From positions 1-24,657 of the IMG/VR virus record IMGVR_UViG_3300036046_000367: a DNA stretch of 24,657 nucleotides; one strand, given 5' to 3'. A program made the translations under genes and the position numbers. The notes under the pieces were generated by a model. The model saw only the letters and a list, made by a program, of their open reading frames with translations, was not told where the DNA came from and searched no databases. Positions 468-12,994 of the stretch are shown here, piece after piece (positions within the stretch are counted from its first letter, which is position 1; each line of letters begins with the position of its first letter). Source of the stretch: a virus.

Positions 468-1376
468 TCAGATGTTCACGTCGCCGTTGGCGCGCGCGTA
501 GTTGCCGGCGTTGTCGAACTGATTCGGCGCAGCCAGTGCGGGCGCGGCTTGGCGCTGTGGCAATTGCGGTTGCTGCACACCGGAGTAGCGGCCCTGCGCA
601 AGGTATTCGTCAAGCTGCTTGCGCAGTTCGATGAATTTGCGGTAGTCGTCGCCGCTGACGAGGCGCTGCATCAGCGCAGGCGTGGCGCTGTCTACCTCCC
701 AGATCGGCGGTGTGCTCGGCCCTTGCACCTTCGCACCCTTCATCTGGGTCTCGCCCACACCCAGTGTCATCCACAGCGCAAATACATGCAGCCTGGTCGT
801 CTTGTTACGCTGTTTGGCAATCTCTTGCGCCACTGCGCCGGCGTAGCCCTTCAGCGCGTTAATCAGCTTCGTTCCCTCGTCGGTGTTAAACGATTTGAAG
901 CTGAGTTCGTATAGCTCACGCTTGGGGTCGTTCTTGAGCACCACGAACAACGAGATGGACGAAACGCATTTGCCGTTCGGCCCGGCCAAGTCTTGCGGAT
1001 ACATATAGCGATCAACGATCAGCTTCACGCGCTTGGGCTTGCCGAAGTTGTCGAGCGTGCCGGCTGGATCGTCGTATTCGGCGACAAAGTATTTGTTGCT
1101 GAAACCGATCACAGCCAACTCAACTTCGGTTGCAACCCGCATGACGGTCGAGCCGCCGCCGAAGTGTTTGACACTCTCGCTCTTGCCGATGTCGGGAGCG
1201 TCGCCGTTGTCGTCAGCAATGGCGTAGCCGCCGCGTTCAATCAATGAACCACGGTGATAGGTCGTGTTCTCATTCATGTGTTGGAGCCGGCGAAAGCCGA
1301 CGGCTTCCAACTGTTGTTCCTGCACGGCTTCGCCGGCGTCGAATGCGTCGTAGTTCGTTTCATTTGTCGTAGTCAT
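468..1376 (-). CDS. Hypothetical protein, 302 aa, with disordered C-terminus
   Basis: I do not recognise the family. The start at 1376 is chosen over the longer frame to 1442 because an AGGAGA Shine-Dalgarno lies at the usual distance and the longer version would overlap the upstream gene. Residues about 25-230 look globular with alternating strand-like segments; the last 40 residues are rich in Gln, Pro and Ala and look disordered. A globular core plus a flexible tail in a leftward early-type operon would suit a DNA-metabolism accessory such as an ssDNA-binding protein, but no diagnostic motif supports this. The upstream gene's stop at 1390 is 13 nt away, so the two are probably co-transcribed. 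Confidence 0.8.
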   Translation of the reverse strand: MTTTNETNYDAFDAGEAVQEQQLEAVGFRRLQHMNENTTYHRGSLIERGGYAIADDNGDAPDIGKSESVKHFGGGSTVMRVATEVELAVIGFSNKYFVAEYDDPAGTLDNFGKPKRVKLIVDRYMYPQDLAGPNGKCVSSISLFVVLKNDPKRELYELSFKSFNTDEGTKLINALKGYAGAVAQEIAKQRNKTTRLHVFALWMTLGVGETQMKGAKVQGPSTPPIWEVDSATPALMQRLVSGDDYRKFIELRKQLDEYLAQGRYSGVQQPQLPQRQAAPALAAPNQFDNAGNYARANGDVNI

Positions 1377-1389
1377 TTCGTTTGTTCTC

Positions 1390-1668
1390 CTAGTTGATTG
1401 ATTCGGTTTCTTGTGCCGCCGCGCTTTGCAGTGCAGCGGCATACAGTGCGGATTCCTCGGTGATCGGCGCAGACGGCGCGGTGTATTCGCTCATCATTGC
1501 TGCCAGCGTGTCGCGCAAGTTGGCGGCTTCCTCGTCTCGATAGCTCAGCCGCTTTTCGGCAATCCGCACCGCCAGCATCACCATTTGCATCTTGATCGCT
1601 GCCGGCGCATACAGCAGCGAGTTGATGACGCGGATGTCGTTGATGAGTCGTTGGGCTTCGTCGGTCAT
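1390..1668 (-). CDS. Small alpha-helical hypothetical protein, 92 aa
   Basis: It starts at an ATG at 1668 that overlaps the upstream stop as ATGA, which is why I reject the longer frame to 1719. The protein (MTDEAQRLINDIRVINSLL...) is mostly amphipathic helix, with several Met residues mid-chain and an Ala-rich C-terminus. There is no recognisable domain. The ATGA overlap implies translational coupling with the small membrane protein before it. Confidence 0.65.
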   Translation of the reverse strand: MTDEAQRLINDIRVINSLLYAPAAIKMQMVMLAVRIAEKRLSYRDEEAANLRDTLAAMMSEYTAPSAPITEESALYAAALQSAAAQETESIN

Positions 1669-3225: not shown

Positions 3226-3690
3226 ATGAATTTCCTCATGTTGATTACACTTGAAAATGTGAACAGCTTTGAGCCCGAACCCTTCGGCGAGTGGATGAAA
3301 TCTTTGAGAGAGGCCCACAAGCCACCGTGGACGCAGGAAGAAATGGGTGAGCAACTCGGCTTCGATCAGGCCATGATTAGCAAGATCGAAAAGGGATTGA
3401 AACCATCGGGAGATTTCTGTATTGCCGTTGCGGTACATGAGGGCTTGCCGTTCGATTTTGTGCTTCGCAAGGCTGGACTTATTGAGGGAGGGAACACTGA
3501 TGCCACAACGACCGAAGAAGAAGCGATGCTTCAACGCAGTCTCAAGCGCTTTAAGTCGCCTGAGGCGCGCGCCCGCGCCATTGCCGCGGCGATGGCCGTC
3601 CTGGATAGCCTGGCCGAGACTGAGAGCAAAGATCAGCGAGCTTCGGCTACTGCATCGCGCCCGGCGACGCGGCGTCCTGCCGCTGGTTAG
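3226..3690 (+). CDS. XRE-family helix-turn-helix regulator
   Basis: Residues about 19-70 form a classic XRE/Cro-CI-like HTH: FGEWMKSLREAH, then TQEEMGEQLGF, then QAMISKIEKGLKPSG. The C-terminal half has a helix-rich segment (EEEAMLQRSLKRFKSPEARA) and a low-complexity tail. It is a likely repressor or switch protein of the phage, transcribed divergently from the RHH-like gene. ATG 3226 is the longest start; ATG 3238 or GTG 3259 would keep the HTH intact and may be the true start, since CATAAT at 3217-3222 could be a -10 box too close to 3226. There is no LexA-like peptidase domain. Confidence 0.85.
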   Translation: MNFLMLITLENVNSFEPEPFGEWMKSLREAHKPPWTQEEMGEQLGFDQAMISKIEKGLKPSGDFCIAVAVHEGLPFDFVLRKAGLIEGGNTDATTTEEEAMLQRSLKRFKSPEARARAIAAAMAVLDSLAETESKDQRASATASRPATRRPAAG

Positions 3691-3816: not shown

Positions 3817-4392
3817 ATGAGAAAACGTCGCGGCATCTTCGCGTACGTCATCGGTGCATTGGTTCTGTTGTGCGGCTGCATGGCCGCCGCTTCGATCTTC
3901 AATCGCAGTGCTGATCGTGGCGCGCAACTGGCCACGCCACGTGTGACGATCTTCGCCACGCAGCCGGCAACTGTCGTACCCACGGCAATATTTGAGCCAA
4001 TTGCCACGGACGTGCCGCCTACGCTCACCACAGCGCCCACAGCAGCCCCTTTGCCCACGGTTGAGCCTGCGACGCCTACAACGCAAATTGACGCGCCTAC
4101 GGCCCTTCCTGTTGCGACGGAGGCGCCAACCGAAGCGCCAGCGCCGGCCGTCGCCACGGAGGTAGATGGATCGCTTTCTGTACCGCCTTCTGGTGCCGAT
4201 GCTGATGGCAAGAACCCGTTCGTTGATCCGCCGTGGCTACCTTGCCAACAAGGGCAGATCAAAGGCAGTCAAACTGGTAAATACCACTTCCCTGATGGTC
4301 GCTTCTACAAATTCACTTTTAGCAAGGTGCGATGCTTCAATAGCGAAGCTGAAGCACAAGCTGCCGGATTCGTCATGGCACAGAATCAGTAG
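3817..4392 (+). CDS. Putative lipoprotein with Thr/Pro/Ala linker and two-Cys C-terminal domain
   Basis: The start has a strong Shine-Dalgarno (GGGGAGGGGAG). A basic N-terminus and hydrophobic stretch end in LLCGC, a plausible lipobox with Cys21 as the lipidated residue. Residues about 40-125 are a Thr/Pro/Ala/Glu-rich spacer, a style common in Chloroflexota surface proteins. The C-terminal about 49 residues (Cys143 to the end) carry GQIKGSQTGKYHFPDGRFY and CFNSEAEAQAAGF (Cys173), recalling the small Ada-like/nuclease-associated module with pattern 'GnI.s.kiYH.PgG..Y......CF.SEaEA.aAGf'. It stands alone between the regulator and the origin-like region, so it may be a lysogenic-conversion (moron) gene acting at the host surface. 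Confidence 0.75.
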   Translation: MRKRRGIFAYVIGALVLLCGCMAAASIFNRSADRGAQLATPRVTIFATQPATVVPTAIFEPIATDVPPTLTTAPTAAPLPTVEPATPTTQIDAPTALPVATEAPTEAPAPAVATEVDGSLSVPPSGADADGKNPFVDPPWLPCQQGQIKGSQTGKYHFPDGRFYKFTFSKVRCFNSEAEAQAAGFVMAQNQ

Positions 4393-4399
4393 GCAACGA

Positions 4400-4414
4400 T
4401 TGCAATTGTTGCAA
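4400..4414. repeat. Outer TTGCAA inverted repeat, left arm
   Basis: Read on the minus strand, TTGCAACAATTGCAA matches TTGCAACAATGCAA at 4789-4802 with one gap. The two arms flank the GTGGA array, adding an outer layer of inverted symmetry to the gene-free stretch 4393-4880. Confidence 0.45.
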
Positions 4415-4434
4415 AGCGCGCGCCACTCTTGATC

Positions 4435-4732
4435 GTGGAAGGTTAGTGGATAGTTGTGGAAGGTTGAACCATGACCCTCCATTGATTTCGACCTGCAATT
4501 CATGCTGGATCGGTAAAATTGTGGAGAGTGTGGATGGTTGGAACTTGAAACCTTTATATTTACGCTCTTTTTTGTCTATTACTTCACATAAGCCATTTTA
4601 AAAAGGCTTATGCGAGAATCTGACTGTAACCATCCACACTTTCCACTACTGAGCGAAGCAAGCCCCAAATGGCTGAAAAATGCATGGAAGCGCAAAGTTA
4701 AACCCTCCACTAACCCTCCACCCTGCTTCCAC
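4435..4732. repeat. Symmetric GTGGA iteron array around an AT-rich core; candidate replication origin or partition site
   Basis: Forward boxes of the form GTGGAaGGTT lie at 4435-4444, 4446-4455 and 4456-4465, then 4521-4529 and 4530-4539. Reverse-oriented boxes lie at 4628-4637 and 4638-4646, then 4701-4710, 4712-4721 and 4723-4732. Boxes are phased at 9-11 bp. The outer triplets and inner pairs share the same centre (4583.5), and the gaps between them are 55 and 54 nt, although the gap sequences do not match. The 88-nt core (4540-4627) is about one third G+C by my count, in an otherwise G+C-rich genome. Some boxes resemble DnaA boxes (TGTGGATGG versus TGTGGATAA). It fills most of the longest non-coding stretch of the window. 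Confidence 0.7.
4587..4612. repeat. AT-rich core hairpin
   Basis: CATAAGCC (4587-4594) and GGCTTATG (4605-4612) flank a loop made only of A and T (ATTTTAAAAA). It lies inside the AT-rich core of the GTGGA array and could help unwinding, or be a rightward/leftward terminator. It is not centred exactly on the array's symmetry axis. Confidence 0.5.
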
Positions 4733-4788
4733 AACCTCCGCGAGCGCGACCAGTGGCCCGGTTCCCAGCGCGGGCGATGATTGCAGTA

Positions 4789-4802
4789 TTGCAACAATGC
4801 AA
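4789..4802. repeat. Outer TTGCAA inverted repeat, right arm
   Basis: TTGCAACAATGCAA mirrors the left arm at 4400-4414; a further TTGCAGTATTGCAA overlaps it at 4781-4794. The rest of the stretch to 4880 holds a possible -10 box (TACAAT, 4841-4846) and a purine-rich ribosome site (GGGAGGGG, 4863-4870). Confidence 0.4.
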
Positions 4803-4889: not shown

Positions 4890-5099
4890 ATGCCCTCATC
4901 GCCATCGTCGTCACCGTCTGAGTCGCTCACGCCAATGCAGATGCGTGCGCTCGAAAAGTGCGTCGCGTTCATCCGGCGCGCGATGTGTGCTACGGCCAGC
5001 GATCACATCGTCATCAGCGAGATGAGCATCGCGCCGGATCGTGTGCATGGCCTGGTCAGCGTCCGTATCAGGATTGACGACGAGACGAAAGACACGTAA
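4890..5099 (+). CDS. Small hypothetical protein, 69 aa
   Basis: A Ser/Pro-rich N-terminus precedes a helix (MQMRALEKCVAFIRRAM) and strand-like segments (HIVISEMSI, LVSVRIRI). The family is not recognised. A strong GGGAGGGG ribosome site at 4863-4870 is 19 nt upstream of ATG 4890 but at ideal distance from an in-frame CTG at 4881, so a CTG start is possible. It is the first rightward gene after the origin-like region and is followed by the leader hairpin at 5128-5182. Confidence 0.5.
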   Translation: MPSSPSSSPSESLTPMQMRALEKCVAFIRRAMCATASDHIVISEMSIAPDRVHGLVSVRIRIDDETKDT

Positions 5100-5127: not shown

Positions 5128-5182
5128 AGAATCAATTGCGCGGCCACGAGTCATTGACTCGTGGCCGCGCTTCGCTTTTCCG
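5128..5182 (+). terminator. Leader hairpin element, copy A (terminator-like)
   Basis: Arms of 16 nt (5138-5153 and 5155-5170) form a near-perfect palindrome, GCGCGGCCACGAGTCA with its complement, followed by TTCGCTTTTCCG. The flanks match copy B at 13161-13217: 18 of 19 positions on the left, and 19 of 21 on the right. The stem tips differ in sequence but remain paired. In both copies an ATG without a Shine-Dalgarno follows within about 35 nt. Confidence 0.75.
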
Positions 5183-5209: not shown

Positions 5210-5413
5210 AGGCTTCAAACGTTTCATGTGCTGACCGTGCGCGTGCTCATCGCTGAGAACGAAAAAGGCGATGGTGACGTTGCTCGCGACGTTGCTCGCC
5301 ACACAATCGAACGCGCGTTTGACGCGCTGTGGGTTGAGGCGGGCAGGCCGGGGCGCGTGGCGTCAGTTGTGCGTGAGCCGTTGCAAATGCTCATCAAGGA
5401 GATTGATCTATGA
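5204..5413 (+). CDS. Small hypothetical protein, 69 aa
   Basis: MQRLQTFHVLTVRVLIAENE begins with strand-like hydrophobic alternation, followed by helices (RDVARHTIERAFDALWVEA). The family is not recognised. ATG 5204 is preferred over TTG 5192, though neither has a Shine-Dalgarno. The stop overlaps the next ATG (ATGA at 5410-5413), which couples it to the three-segment membrane protein. Confidence 0.6.
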   Translation: MQRLQTFHVLTVRVLIAENEKGDGDVARDVARHTIERAFDALWVEAGRPGRVASVVREPLQMLIKEIDL

Positions 5414-5697
5414 CAGATGTCGCGTTGTCGGCCATCGCCGGCGTGGTGCTCTCGCTAGTGTTTAGCTATGTGCCGGGTGTATCGAGCGCGTTCGACAAAT
5501 TAGAGACGACGCAGAAGCGGCTGACGATGGCGTTGCTGCTGGCAATCGTTGCGTCGGGCGCGTTGTTTTTGTCGTGCGCAAACGTCATCAGCGAAGTGGC
5601 CTGCACACAGGCCGGCGTGATCGGACTCGTCAACGCTTACATCGCTGCGCTGGTTGCCAATCAAGCCGCATACACCATCAGTCCCAAAAAGCGGTGA
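5410..5697 (+). CDS. Small three-segment membrane protein, holin-like
   Basis: This 95-residue protein has hydrophobic segments at about residues 4-24, 38-60 and 67-90, and ends in a basic tail (SPKKR). Size and topology fit class I holins, but no sequence family is recognised and no endolysin is seen in the window. It is coupled to the gene before and followed 4 nt later by the small membrane/coiled-coil gene. The alternative is a membrane partner of the EAD-like module downstream. Confidence 0.65.
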   Translation: MTDVALSAIAGVVLSLVFSYVPGVSSAFDKLETTQKRLTMALLLAIVASGALFLSCANVISEVACTQAGVIGLVNAYIAALVANQAAYTISPKKR

Positions 5698-8945: not shown

Positions 8946-9265
8946 CGATAAATGCAGCGAGCCGCGAACTGAGTAACAGCCCGGTGCGCCAGAGCGTGCG
9001 CGAAGTGCGCGCACGGCGCATTCGACTGCCGGCGTATTCAGTTGCGCCAACGTCGCCCGTTGTGCGTTGTTACAACGATGCCACCGGCGCGGACATCAGC
9101 GGATCAGTGTTGAGTGGATTAGCAACAGTGACGCAGGGTGAGTTTGTGACTAACGTTCTCGACCCGGCCAATACGGACATCGGCGCGGTGTATCGCATTG
9201 AAATCCAGTTCGTCGTTAGCAGCGAAACAATCATCCGATATTTTCGTGTGATCTTGGAGGCGTGA
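8942..9265 (+). CDS. Small beta-rich virion-type protein, 107 aa
   Basis: After an Arg-rich N-terminal segment, the protein has alternating strands: VVRCYNDATGADISGSVL, TVTQGEFVTNVLDP, AVYRIEIQFVVSSETIIRYF. This is an immunoglobulin-like or fibre-accessory layout. The family is not recognised. It is coupled to the repeat fibre by ATGA and ends 3 nt before TerS, so it may be a fibre chaperone or attachment protein. Confidence 0.6.
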   Translation: MTINAASRELSNSPVRQSVREVRARRIRLPAYSVAPTSPVVRCYNDATGADISGSVLSGLATVTQGEFVTNVLDPANTDIGAVYRIEIQFVVSSETIIRYFRVILEA

Positions 9266-9268
9266 ATT

Positions 9269-9694
9269 GTGGCAGAACGAAACGACGGACGAAACGAGAG
9301 AGGGCATTTTGTCAAAGGCCACCCCAACACGTCGGGCGGCGGGCGCAAAAGTGCGCGGTTCGAGGAGGGGCGGCTTGCCGTCCTTGAGCACGAAACAACC
9401 GATGACAAATGGCGGGCGATCTGTGCGAAAGCGATTGACGACGCAATCAATGGCGACGGGCGAACCCGCGAGCGCGGACGGCGCTTTGTCGCCGACTACC
9501 TCATTGGTAGACCGCGCCAAACAATCACGCTCGAAACGCGCCCGCCCGACCCGTTTGCCGAATACGACGGATACAGCGACGAACAGTTACGCGCAATCGC
9601 TGACGGCGGAGGTGGCGCGCTCAGTGCTGGCGGCACGGGCAGCGCAGGCACAGACGGCGGCGCGGCAACAACTGGCACGCCGTCACCTGATTGA
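9269..9694 (+). CDS. Putative small terminase subunit
   Basis: This 141-residue protein starts at GTG 9269 with a GGAGG ribosome site. The N-terminus (RGHFVKGHPNTSGGGRKSAR) resembles the 'GN/GHP.GR' start of DUF5681/TerS-like proteins, and the middle (IDDAINGDGRTRERGRRFVADYLIGRP) fits the helical DNA-binding half. The C-terminal 45 residues are Gly/Thr-rich and overlap the start of the large subunit. Role inferred mainly from its position: recognition of phage DNA for packaging together with TerL. Confidence 0.6.
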   Translation: MAERNDGRNERGHFVKGHPNTSGGGRKSARFEEGRLAVLEHETTDDKWRAICAKAIDDAINGDGRTRERGRRFVADYLIGRPRQTITLETRPPDPFAEYDGYSDEQLRAIADGGGGALSAGGTGSAGTDGGAATTGTPSPD

Positions 9695-11000: not shown

Positions 11001-12994
11001 ACATCATTCAACGCATGGCCTCTCGCTGGTTCGGTGATACGTCACTGCCGCAGGCCAAAGCTGCCTACAACGTCGTCCCTGTTGGTGTGCAGGGCCGGCC
11101 ATATCCGCGCACTTACGACGCGACCAGACTCATCAGTGCCGCGCGCACAAACGAGGTTGTCTACGCCTGCATCAGCACCAAACAACGCACCGCTGTTGAC
11201 CCGCGCCTATACGTCGAACGTCGGCAGAGTGACGGGCAGTGGTTGGAAATTGACGGGCATCCGCTACGCCGGCTGATTATGCGCCCGAACCCCGACATGG
11301 ACGAAATCAATTTTTGGCAATGGTTCATTGCCAGCCGCGAGACGTGCGGCGAGTTCTATGCCGAGATTGTGCGCTCATCGAAGGCCGGGCCGCCGGTGGC
11401 GCTTTACCCACTCAACCCGGCGCTGGTCGATCCGATCCCGAATAGTGACGGCACAATCGGCGCGTATCAGTGGCGGCTCGGTTATTTGAAACAGATCATT
11501 CCCGCCGAGGATATGTTGGTGTGGCGCAATGTTGATATCGGCAACCGATGGCGCGGCCTGTCGCCGTTATCAGTTGCGCTTGGCGCAGTGGGCGGCGACA
11601 TTGCACAGACCGACTACGTAAATGAATTCTTCCGCGTGGGTGGCATTCCCGCCGGGTTGATGACGATCAAGGGCCGGACGGTGACGCCGCTGGAGGCCGA
11701 GGAAATCCGCGAGAAGTGGCGCGCTAAATTCTCGCCATCATCGGGCGGCAACATGAGCGACATTGCTGTGATGGACGAGAACGCGGAGTTTCAGGTGCTT
11801 GGCAGCAAACTCGATGAGTTGTCATCAGAGGAACTGCGCGGCGTGGCTGAGTCGCGCATCTGTATGGTGTTCGGCGTGCCGCCGCTGGTGATCTACGCCT
11901 ACATCGGCATGCTGCGCTCGATTCAATCCAACCTACGCGAAGCCTGGCAACAGTTTTGGGATTCGACACTCACGCCCGAATACCGCGCAATGCGGCAATG
12001 GCTCACGACGCGCATGCTATCAGAGTTTGAAAGCGACGATTTGGTGATGGGTGAGCGCGTGCGCTGCCAGTGGGACATGTTGCAGGTTGCAGCGTTACAG
12101 GACGACGTAGACGGCATGCAGCGGCGTGCACGCGAGAACTACACCGCCGGCGGCATCACGCGCAACGAGTTTCGCGCTGTCATCGGTGCTCCGCCGGATG
12201 ACGTGCATGGCAACGACTACGCAACGCCTGCACAACCGACAGGCGCGCCGGAACCGACGAAGCGCGCCGCACCGATAGCGCGCAAGGCAGTGACAAAAGC
12301 TGATGATGACGACATTGAGCGCATTGACGCCAGCCGCGAAAAGATCGTCGGCAAGGCCGTCGTGAAGATCGAGAAATACTTGCGCGACGAATACGAGGCG
12401 GCCAGCGACCGCATCAAGCGCGACGGCGTTGACGCGGCCACGACCGGCGCGGACGACGGCGCAAAACTGGCACGAGTGATGCAGCCGTTCTATCGTCTCT
12501 CGTTGCGTGCCGCATACGACGATACAAATGTTCTACTCGCTGATCAGGACATCAGCGTGAGTTTCGATCTGGAGAATCCGCGCGTGGCCGACACGATCAA
12601 CGCGCTATTGCAACAGGTCAAACGCGACATTCCCGAAACGACTATCGAGGACATCCGCGCGGCCATCGCAAACGGCCTGCGCGAAGGTTGGGGAACAGAT
12701 CGTATTGGCGACGAACTGCGCGCGGCTGCGCCGCAGATCAGCCAGCGCCGCGCTGACACCATTGCCCGCACAGAGGTAGCGCGCGCACACAGCCGGGGCG
12801 CGCTACTGAGTTATGAGGATTCGGGCGTCGTCAGCGAGGTTGAATGGAACGCAACACTCGACAACAAGACCAGCGAGATATGCCAGCGGCTACATGGTCA
12901 GCGCGCCGGGCTGGGTGAGGCGTTTGAGTCTGGGATCAGTGAGCCGCCGGCGCATCCGAACTGTCGCAGTGTGCTGCTGCCGGTGGTAAACTAG
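10997..12994 (+). CDS. HK97-type portal protein fused to a MuF-like minor head domain
   Basis: Residues about 20-390 are an HK97-family portal (NEVVYACISTKQRTAVDPRL, PLRRLIMRPNPDM, LVWRNVDIGNRWRGLSPLSV, VFGVPPLVIYAY), which forms the DNA-entry ring at the capsid vertex. An acidic/lysine linker (about 420-450) leads to a helical region. The C-terminal about 90 residues match the Mu gpF-like domain: ADTIARTEVARAHSRGALLS, then WNATLDNKTSEICQRLHGQ, ending in EPPAHPNCRS. Portal and MuF are usually separate adjacent genes (as in SPP1), so this 665-residue fusion is unusual. No toxin domain follows the MuF part. Confidence 0.9.
   Translation: MNIIQRMASRWFGDTSLPQAKAAYNVVPVGVQGRPYPRTYDATRLISAARTNEVVYACISTKQRTAVDPRLYVERRQSDGQWLEIDGHPLRRLIMRPNPDMDEINFWQWFIASRETCGEFYAEIVRSSKAGPPVALYPLNPALVDPIPNSDGTIGAYQWRLGYLKQIIPAEDMLVWRNVDIGNRWRGLSPLSVALGAVGGDIAQTDYVNEFFRVGGIPAGLMTIKGRTVTPLEAEEIREKWRAKFSPSSGGNMSDIAVMDENAEFQVLGSKLDELSSEELRGVAESRICMVFGVPPLVIYAYIGMLRSIQSNLREAWQQFWDSTLTPEYRAMRQWLTTRMLSEFESDDLVMGERVRCQWDMLQVAALQDDVDGMQRRARENYTAGGITRNEFRAVIGAPPDDVHGNDYATPAQPTGAPEPTKRAAPIARKAVTKADDDDIERIDASREKIVGKAVVKIEKYLRDEYEAASDRIKRDGVDAATTGADDGAKLARVMQPFYRLSLRAAYDDTNVLLADQDISVSFDLENPRVADTINALLQQVKRDIPETTIEDIRAAIANGLREGWGTDRIGDELRAAAPQISQRRADTIARTEVARAHSRGALLSYEDSGVVSEVEWNATLDNKTSEICQRLHGQRAGLGEAFESGISEPPAHPNCRSVLLPVVN

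Follow-up and report, generated by a model that had tools for sequence, protein, structure and literature searches.

What is the function of ten short repeats that are arranged as a mirror image around an AT-rich centre in the genome of an uncultivated phage? The repeats lie in IMG/VR record IMGVR_UViG_3300036046_000367, a 24,657-bp phage fragment with terminase, portal and capsid-type genes, which is referred to here, from position 1 to 24,657, as the window. A sequence-only reading had proposed this array of GTGGA boxes as a new-type replication origin or a partition centre. The evidence assembled below indicates that the array is very probably a phage replication origin, built like the origins of P4 and of Staphylococcus aureus pathogenicity islands (SaPIs) and opened by a phage initiator helicase, most likely of the D5/P4 family.

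A mirrored array around an AT-rich core

The array consists of five GTGGA boxes (4435, 4446, 4456, 4521, 4530) followed by five TCCAC boxes (4633, 4642, 4706, 4717, 4728) and spans 4435-4732. As the sequence-only reading had described, the boxes follow a 3-2-core-2-3 order in which the left arm is forward and the right arm mirrored. The box-to-box spacings are 11, 10, 65 and 9 bp on the left and 9, 64, 11 and 11 bp on the right, so that the claimed phasing of 9-11 bp within groups is borne out (9, 10 and 11 bp). A single exact centre at 4583.5 holds for mirror pairs 1, 2, 4 and 5 but not for pair 3 (4456/4706), which is centred on 4583.0. The inner arms (4521-4539/4628-4646) form a 19-nt inverted repeat that is 95% complementary with 88 nt between the arms, and the outer arms (4435-4455/4701-4721) form one of 21 nt that is 86% complementary. 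The core between the inner arms (4540-4627) has a G+C content of 33%, as expected from the predicted one third, compared with 58% for the window. When the boxes are read as 10 bp, the gaps between groups measure 55 nt on the left and 54 nt on the right, as had been stated. Aligned together, the two gaps gave a score of 17, against a shuffle 95th percentile of 17, which makes them unrelated or faintly related at most. Two further elements of the earlier description stood in part. The hairpin in the core does have an 8-bp stem but is no better than chance (z -1.6). The flanking TTGCAA repeats are likewise present, but their 10-nt pair is centred on 4601.5 and is therefore off the array's dyad, and these elements showed no significant conservation in the closest relative, G002, described below.

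The window contains 33 copies of GTGGA/TCCAC, and 10 of these are packed into 298 bp. The Poisson probability of this clustering is 7e-13, or 1.6e-8 across all positions, both before correction for the post hoc choice of the box. A scan of the window for segregated inverted arrays, with the box left unspecified, ranked the array first with a score of 8.0, and the other three hits that it listed were the same site. (A first version of this score was dropped, as it was dominated by GC palindromes.) One of 40 dinucleotide shuffles of the window reached 8.4, compared with the 8.0 of the array. The sequence statistics are therefore moderately strong and insufficient alone for the array to be accepted. 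What makes it convincing is its recurrence in G002.

The same geometry with another box in a sister phage

G002 (IMGVR_UViG_3300025161_000003) was found by a terminase search. It shares the gene order of the window phage, and most of its proteins are 42-80% identical. Based on a 51-bp direct terminal repeat, its genome of ~30.3 kb was taken as circular or complete. At the position equal to that of the window array, between the helix-turn-helix (HTH) regulator gene and the homologue of open reading frame (ORF) 4890-5099, no GTGGA array was found. The site carries an array of a different box, GGTGCGACTT, with copies at 27368, 27379 and 27390, then at 27431 and 27440, an 88-nt core, and an inverted copy at 27538. 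The two phages agree exactly in the distance between the innermost boxes (98 bp), the length of the core (88 nt), its G+C content (0.33) and the spacing of the left inner pair (9 bp), and G002 also has a one-sided outer triplet with 11, 11 spacing. They have no box or gap sequence in common. The complete replacement of the box, without a single base pair of change in the inner spacing, suggests an initiator that relies on geometry, and it agrees well with the earlier suggestion that selection acts on geometry rather than on sequence.

Further evidence comes from GC skew. The detrended cumulative skew of G002 is lowest at 27349, within the array, and highest at 12379, almost diametrically opposite; the best two-replichore origin was placed at 27382. 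The amplitude of 611 compares with a block-shuffle mean of 209, and none of 2000 shuffles was as large. In steps of 1.5 kb, the skew is positive throughout to ~15 kb right of the array and mostly negative or near zero in the 15 kb to its left. A minimum in the array together with a near-opposite maximum is the mark of a bidirectional origin in G002. Moreover, the far switch of the skew falls among late genes that are still directed rightward, and gene direction is therefore not the whole cause.

G002 also encodes a candidate initiator, a 739-aa protein of the P4 family with Prim-Pol, D5_N and DUF5906 domains, the helicase part of which gave a match to the DNA primase PDB 7ola (E 6e-14). Its gene sits in a leftward block that also contains the homologue of window ORF 468-1442. 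From this synteny, a D5 initiator is most likely encoded in the window phage as well, past the left end of the contig.

Arrays at other D5 primase loci

Searches with the window's own box revealed little. The exact dyad pattern returned one viral and nine genome hits, with a D5 match in none of the stored stretches, and the four hits that were inspected contained no comparable array. Scanning TerL relatives for GTGGA alone yielded nothing. These scans were empty because the box is not conserved, and scanning without a specified box was therefore required. This was carried out on 24 D5 loci, 22 from GenBank phages and satellites and two (L003 and L106) from IMG/VR. In 12 of the 24, the best segregated inverted array starts between -137 and +250 bp from the primase stop codon. 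These are Javan389, Methanoculleus virus, Fionnbharth, Acinetobacter 4316, P4 (crr), Javan3, L106, L003, satellite Javan561, Milly, O1205 and Javan135. In a separate inverted-repeat test on 450 bp at the primase 3' end, an arm score of at least 15/17 was reached by 10/24 loci, compared with 0/240 control windows from the same loci.

The box sequence varies between the lineages of these loci. Inner tandem boxes are mostly spaced 9 bp apart (8 bp in some streptococcal phages), the cores are mostly 58-95 nt, and outer groups, where present, begin 31-34, 41-44 or 64-65 bp away from the inner pair, which corresponds to roughly 3, 4 or 6 turns of the helix. The one-sided layout of satellite Javan561, 9 | 65 | 10, 10, may be compared with 9 | 64 | 11, 11 in the window. 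A box similar to that of the window was found only in the D5 phage L003. In this unrelated phage, a symmetric ATGGATGGTT array (9260-9516) directly follows the D5 primase gene, and its box is nearly the window's GTGGATGGTT.

In the other 12 of the 24 loci, the array scan gave nothing at the 3' end of the primase gene. Despite this, inverted repeats are present there in the Listeria locus (by eye and by the inverted-repeat test) and in the Anaeroplasmataceae locus (by the inverted-repeat test). Vash, two Vibrio phages and the Klebsiella, Enterococcus, Salmonella and Proteus loci showed neither arrays nor such repeats there. With about half of the D5 loci lacking an array in the scan, the arrangement is common and not universal.

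Some high-scoring arrays (two with scores above 11 across 354 kb) were also found at loci of TerL relatives that were not selected for D5. These arrays may represent origins or repeats of another kind. Three TerL relatives in which no D5_N domain was detected (G003, G007 and G014) had inverted arrays as well, and other initiators may therefore use the layout too. In G003 (34609-34774, locus L088) and G007 (5372-5558, locus L093), mirrored TGAACTTT arrays with 9-bp spacing lie within a winged-helix-like ORF of 348-353 aa and encode short amino-acid repeats, which recalls the iterons inside lambda O. In G014 (33992-34134, locus L101), mirrored GTTCCAGA-type boxes are found directly 3' of a gene for a 494-aa replicative-helicase-like ATPase.

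Relation to known origins

The origins of phage-inducible chromosomal islands (PICIs) always consist of two iteron sets around an AT-rich region (PMC6092414), and SaPI origins are described in the same way (PMC7581432). SaPI Rep, apparently in the form of two hexamers, uses its C-terminal domain to recognize iterons directly downstream of its own gene (PMC7581432). The window array likewise has two iteron sets flanking an AT-rich region, the sister phage G002 has a D5-type initiator, and the iteron sequence is specific to the element. It differs from these origins in its precise 3-2-core-2-3 mirror layout, in not lying immediately 3' of an initiator gene, and in belonging to a full-size tailed phage rather than to a satellite. 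As an initiator gene directly upstream and a satellite as the carrier are both marks of a PICI origin, the array would work like one without being a member of that group.

The origin of P4, which is served by the alpha primase-helicase, offers a second likeness. The type 1 repeats of ori1 and crr occur in both orientations, many of them 9-11 bp apart, ori lies away from the alpha gene, and the primase is of the P4 family. Unlike the single array of the window, the P4 annotation has two cis elements, ori and crr, at separate places, and its type 1 repeat is GGTGAACAGT rather than the window box GTGGANGGTT. In view of the published PICI and SaPI origins and of the similarly spaced repeats in P4 ori and crr, the term 'new-type' cannot be upheld. 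Likeness to oriC and other DnaA-type origins is poor. The DnaA box TTATCCACA is absent from the window, the nearest window box (CCATCCACA) differs from it at 2/9 positions, and the G002 box is unrelated.

The origins of pRN1 and pRN2 and those of Bordetella BIP-1/BPP-1 are served by Prim-Pol/SF3-helicase/winged-helix replicases. They were published as secondary structures rather than iterons, that of pRN1 as a 21-nt stem with a 58-nt loop (PMC4234260). Each stem arm of pRN1 has two TGTCCA boxes with 9-bp spacing, the arms of BPP-1 are tandem GTTTGCCTC, and pRN2 looks similar. Such tandem, 9-bp-spaced boxes were located at 285-384 in L149 (pRN1), 62-160 in L151 (pRN2) and 608-711 in L150 (BPP-1). 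With boxes in each arm, these stem-loops are readable as inverted iteron pairs. Unlike the window array they have no outer triplets, and the arms of pRN1 are perfectly complementary. In one published result, replication of pRN1 with a mutated stem was regained only once the symmetry of the stem was restored. This speaks for structure rather than sequence at the mutated position and against reading the origin purely as iterons.

Proposed mechanism and alternative explanations

In the proposed mechanism, a D5/P4-family primase-helicase encoded past the left end of the contig would use its DNA-binding domain to bind the ten boxes. With the mirrored inner pairs and the helically phased outer triplets as a guide, a helicase ring could then be placed at either side of the 88-bp core, a two-ring loading suggested by analogy with SaPI Rep and Cch2. 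The AT-rich core would melt and the two helicases would depart in opposite directions, giving bidirectional replication.

Several observations weigh against this explanation. The fragment has no recognized initiator gene, and the 480 bp at its left end have no match in G002; the window's own initiator gene would be unseen because the contig stops short of the corresponding position. In G002, the array is ~3.7 kb from the 5' end of the primase gene and not directly 3' of it. The G002 array is also incompletely mirrored, with one clear inner box and no outer triplet on the right and three extra inverted boxes at the left. GC skew, one of the checks suggested by the sequence-only reading, placed the minimum inside the array for G002 but gave a weakly consistent trend in the window, which is a fragment (0.018 left, 0.051 right, P ~0.05). 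Two other full records were in partial agreement, with the detrended minimum ~200 bp (G026) and ~2.3 kb (G025) from the record's own array. Finally, the likeness of the boxes was weakly related to how similar the primase C-termini are (rho 0.15, P 0.05); a single pair stood well clear of all the others.

The array might also be an origin that is served by host DnaA or another phage protein rather than by a D5 helicase. The box core TGTGGA resembles part of the DnaA box, and the arrays of G003, G007 and G014 suggest that a D5_N domain is not always involved. However, the complete DnaA box is missing from the window, and G002 combines a box that is not a DnaA box with a D5 initiator, leaving this explanation a small chance of being correct. 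That the boxes are operators of the HTH_3 regulator, controlling the leftward early and rightward late operons, is quite improbable. A regulator gene does lie near the array in both phages, and the array stands between leftward and rightward gene blocks. Yet the two regulators, 54% identical, have nearly the same predicted recognition helix (DQAMISKIE and DQTLISKIE) while their putative boxes are unrelated, and the leftward genes begin over 1 kb from the array, ahead of the regulator. Regulation would explain neither the similar arrays that adjoin D5 primase genes in many unrelated phages nor the two-replichore skew of G002.

Inverted arrays are also contained in partition (parS-like) sites, packaging (cos/pac) sites and attP arm-site arrays. 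The partition centre of the sequence-only reading gained no positive support, as no partition protein was called among the window and G002 proteins scanned with Pfam or PHROGs (ten early-region proteins and others, not every ORF). The terminase genes are ~4.5 kb from the window array, the G002 serine recombinase is ~10 kb from its array, and sites of this kind would leave the skew switch and the D5 link unexplained. It is thus extremely unlikely that the array belongs to any of these three types. A phage origin opened by a D5/P4-family helicase accounts for the synteny and architecture shared with G002, for the skew switch there and for the arrays 3' of D5-family primase genes, and the origin proposed by the sequence-only reading is in this respect well supported.

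These results place an origin in an uncultivated phage lineage. Moreover, the mirrored-iteron architecture, which has been called unique to phage-inducible islands, is also present in ordinary tailed phages. A broader proposal, for which the case is about evenly balanced, is that one origin architecture serves D5/P4-family replicons of phages, satellites and archaeal plasmids. It would comprise mirrored iteron pairs 8-9 bp apart, a 58-95-nt AT-rich core and optional, helically phased outer boxes; the box would turn over freely while the geometry is kept. The 'PICI-unique' iteron origins and the pRN1/BIP-1 'stem-loop' origins would thereby be unified, with the window as a displaced, fully symmetric example. 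In phages that have P4-family primases, candidate origins can be located simply through the arrays at D5 loci, and the pRN1 stem-loop origin gains a testable re-reading as inverted iterons.

Features of the locus and neighbouring genes

Table 1. Coordinates of the candidate origin, its parts and nearby genes in the window.
Feature	Coordinates	Strand	Remarks
Whole candidate origin	4400..4802		Intergenic, from ORF 3817-4392 (+) to ORF 4890-5099 (+); based on sequence, ORFs and synteny with G002 27257-27560
Left outer triplet GTGGAAGGTT / GTGGATAGTT / GTGGAAGGTT	4435..4465	+	Spacing 11, 10
Left inner pair GTGGAGAGT GTGGATGGTT	4521..4539	+	Spacing 9 bp
AT-rich core	4540..4627		88 nt; presumed DNA-unwinding element; 33% G+C, matched in G002
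Core hairpin CATAAGCC...GGCTTATG	~4587..4613		8-bp stem
Right inner pair, inverted	4628..4646	-	Spacing 9 bp
Right outer triplet, inverted	4701..4732	-	Spacing 11, 11
Palindrome containing TTGCAA, left of array	4393..4414		Doubtful significance
TTGCAACAAT	4789..4798		Inverted partner of 4405-4414
HTH_3 regulator gene	3226..3690	+	Near array; homologue at the same place in G002
Leftward gene	468..1442	-	Family unrecognized; G002 homologue in leftward block with primase-helicase

Database searches from the locus gave few matches. The 601-bp array region had no match in GenBank phages by blastn, no Rfam match was obtained, and a portal-protein scan across bacterial genomes found no relative. The scan with the HTH regulator gave one weak hit and that with the 468-1442 protein gave none. 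The G002 homologue of the latter ends in DDDIPF, which may be a tail like that of single-stranded DNA-binding proteins. The gene upstream of the array (ORF 3817-4392) encodes 191 aa, and its sole match, Mucin, is below the cut-off. Elsewhere in G002 (locus L085, 17287-17940), a 217-aa protein with no family match looks by eye like a short sliding clamp.

Two further sequence elements were observed. On the + strand of the window, a strong 15-bp hairpin with 12 G-C pairs and a T-rich 3' tail (5138-5170) is likely a terminator after ORF 4890-5099. In locus L002 (89-160), TCCAC direct repeats with 11-bp spacing lie just upstream of a small-terminase-like gene and are possibly a packaging recognition site.
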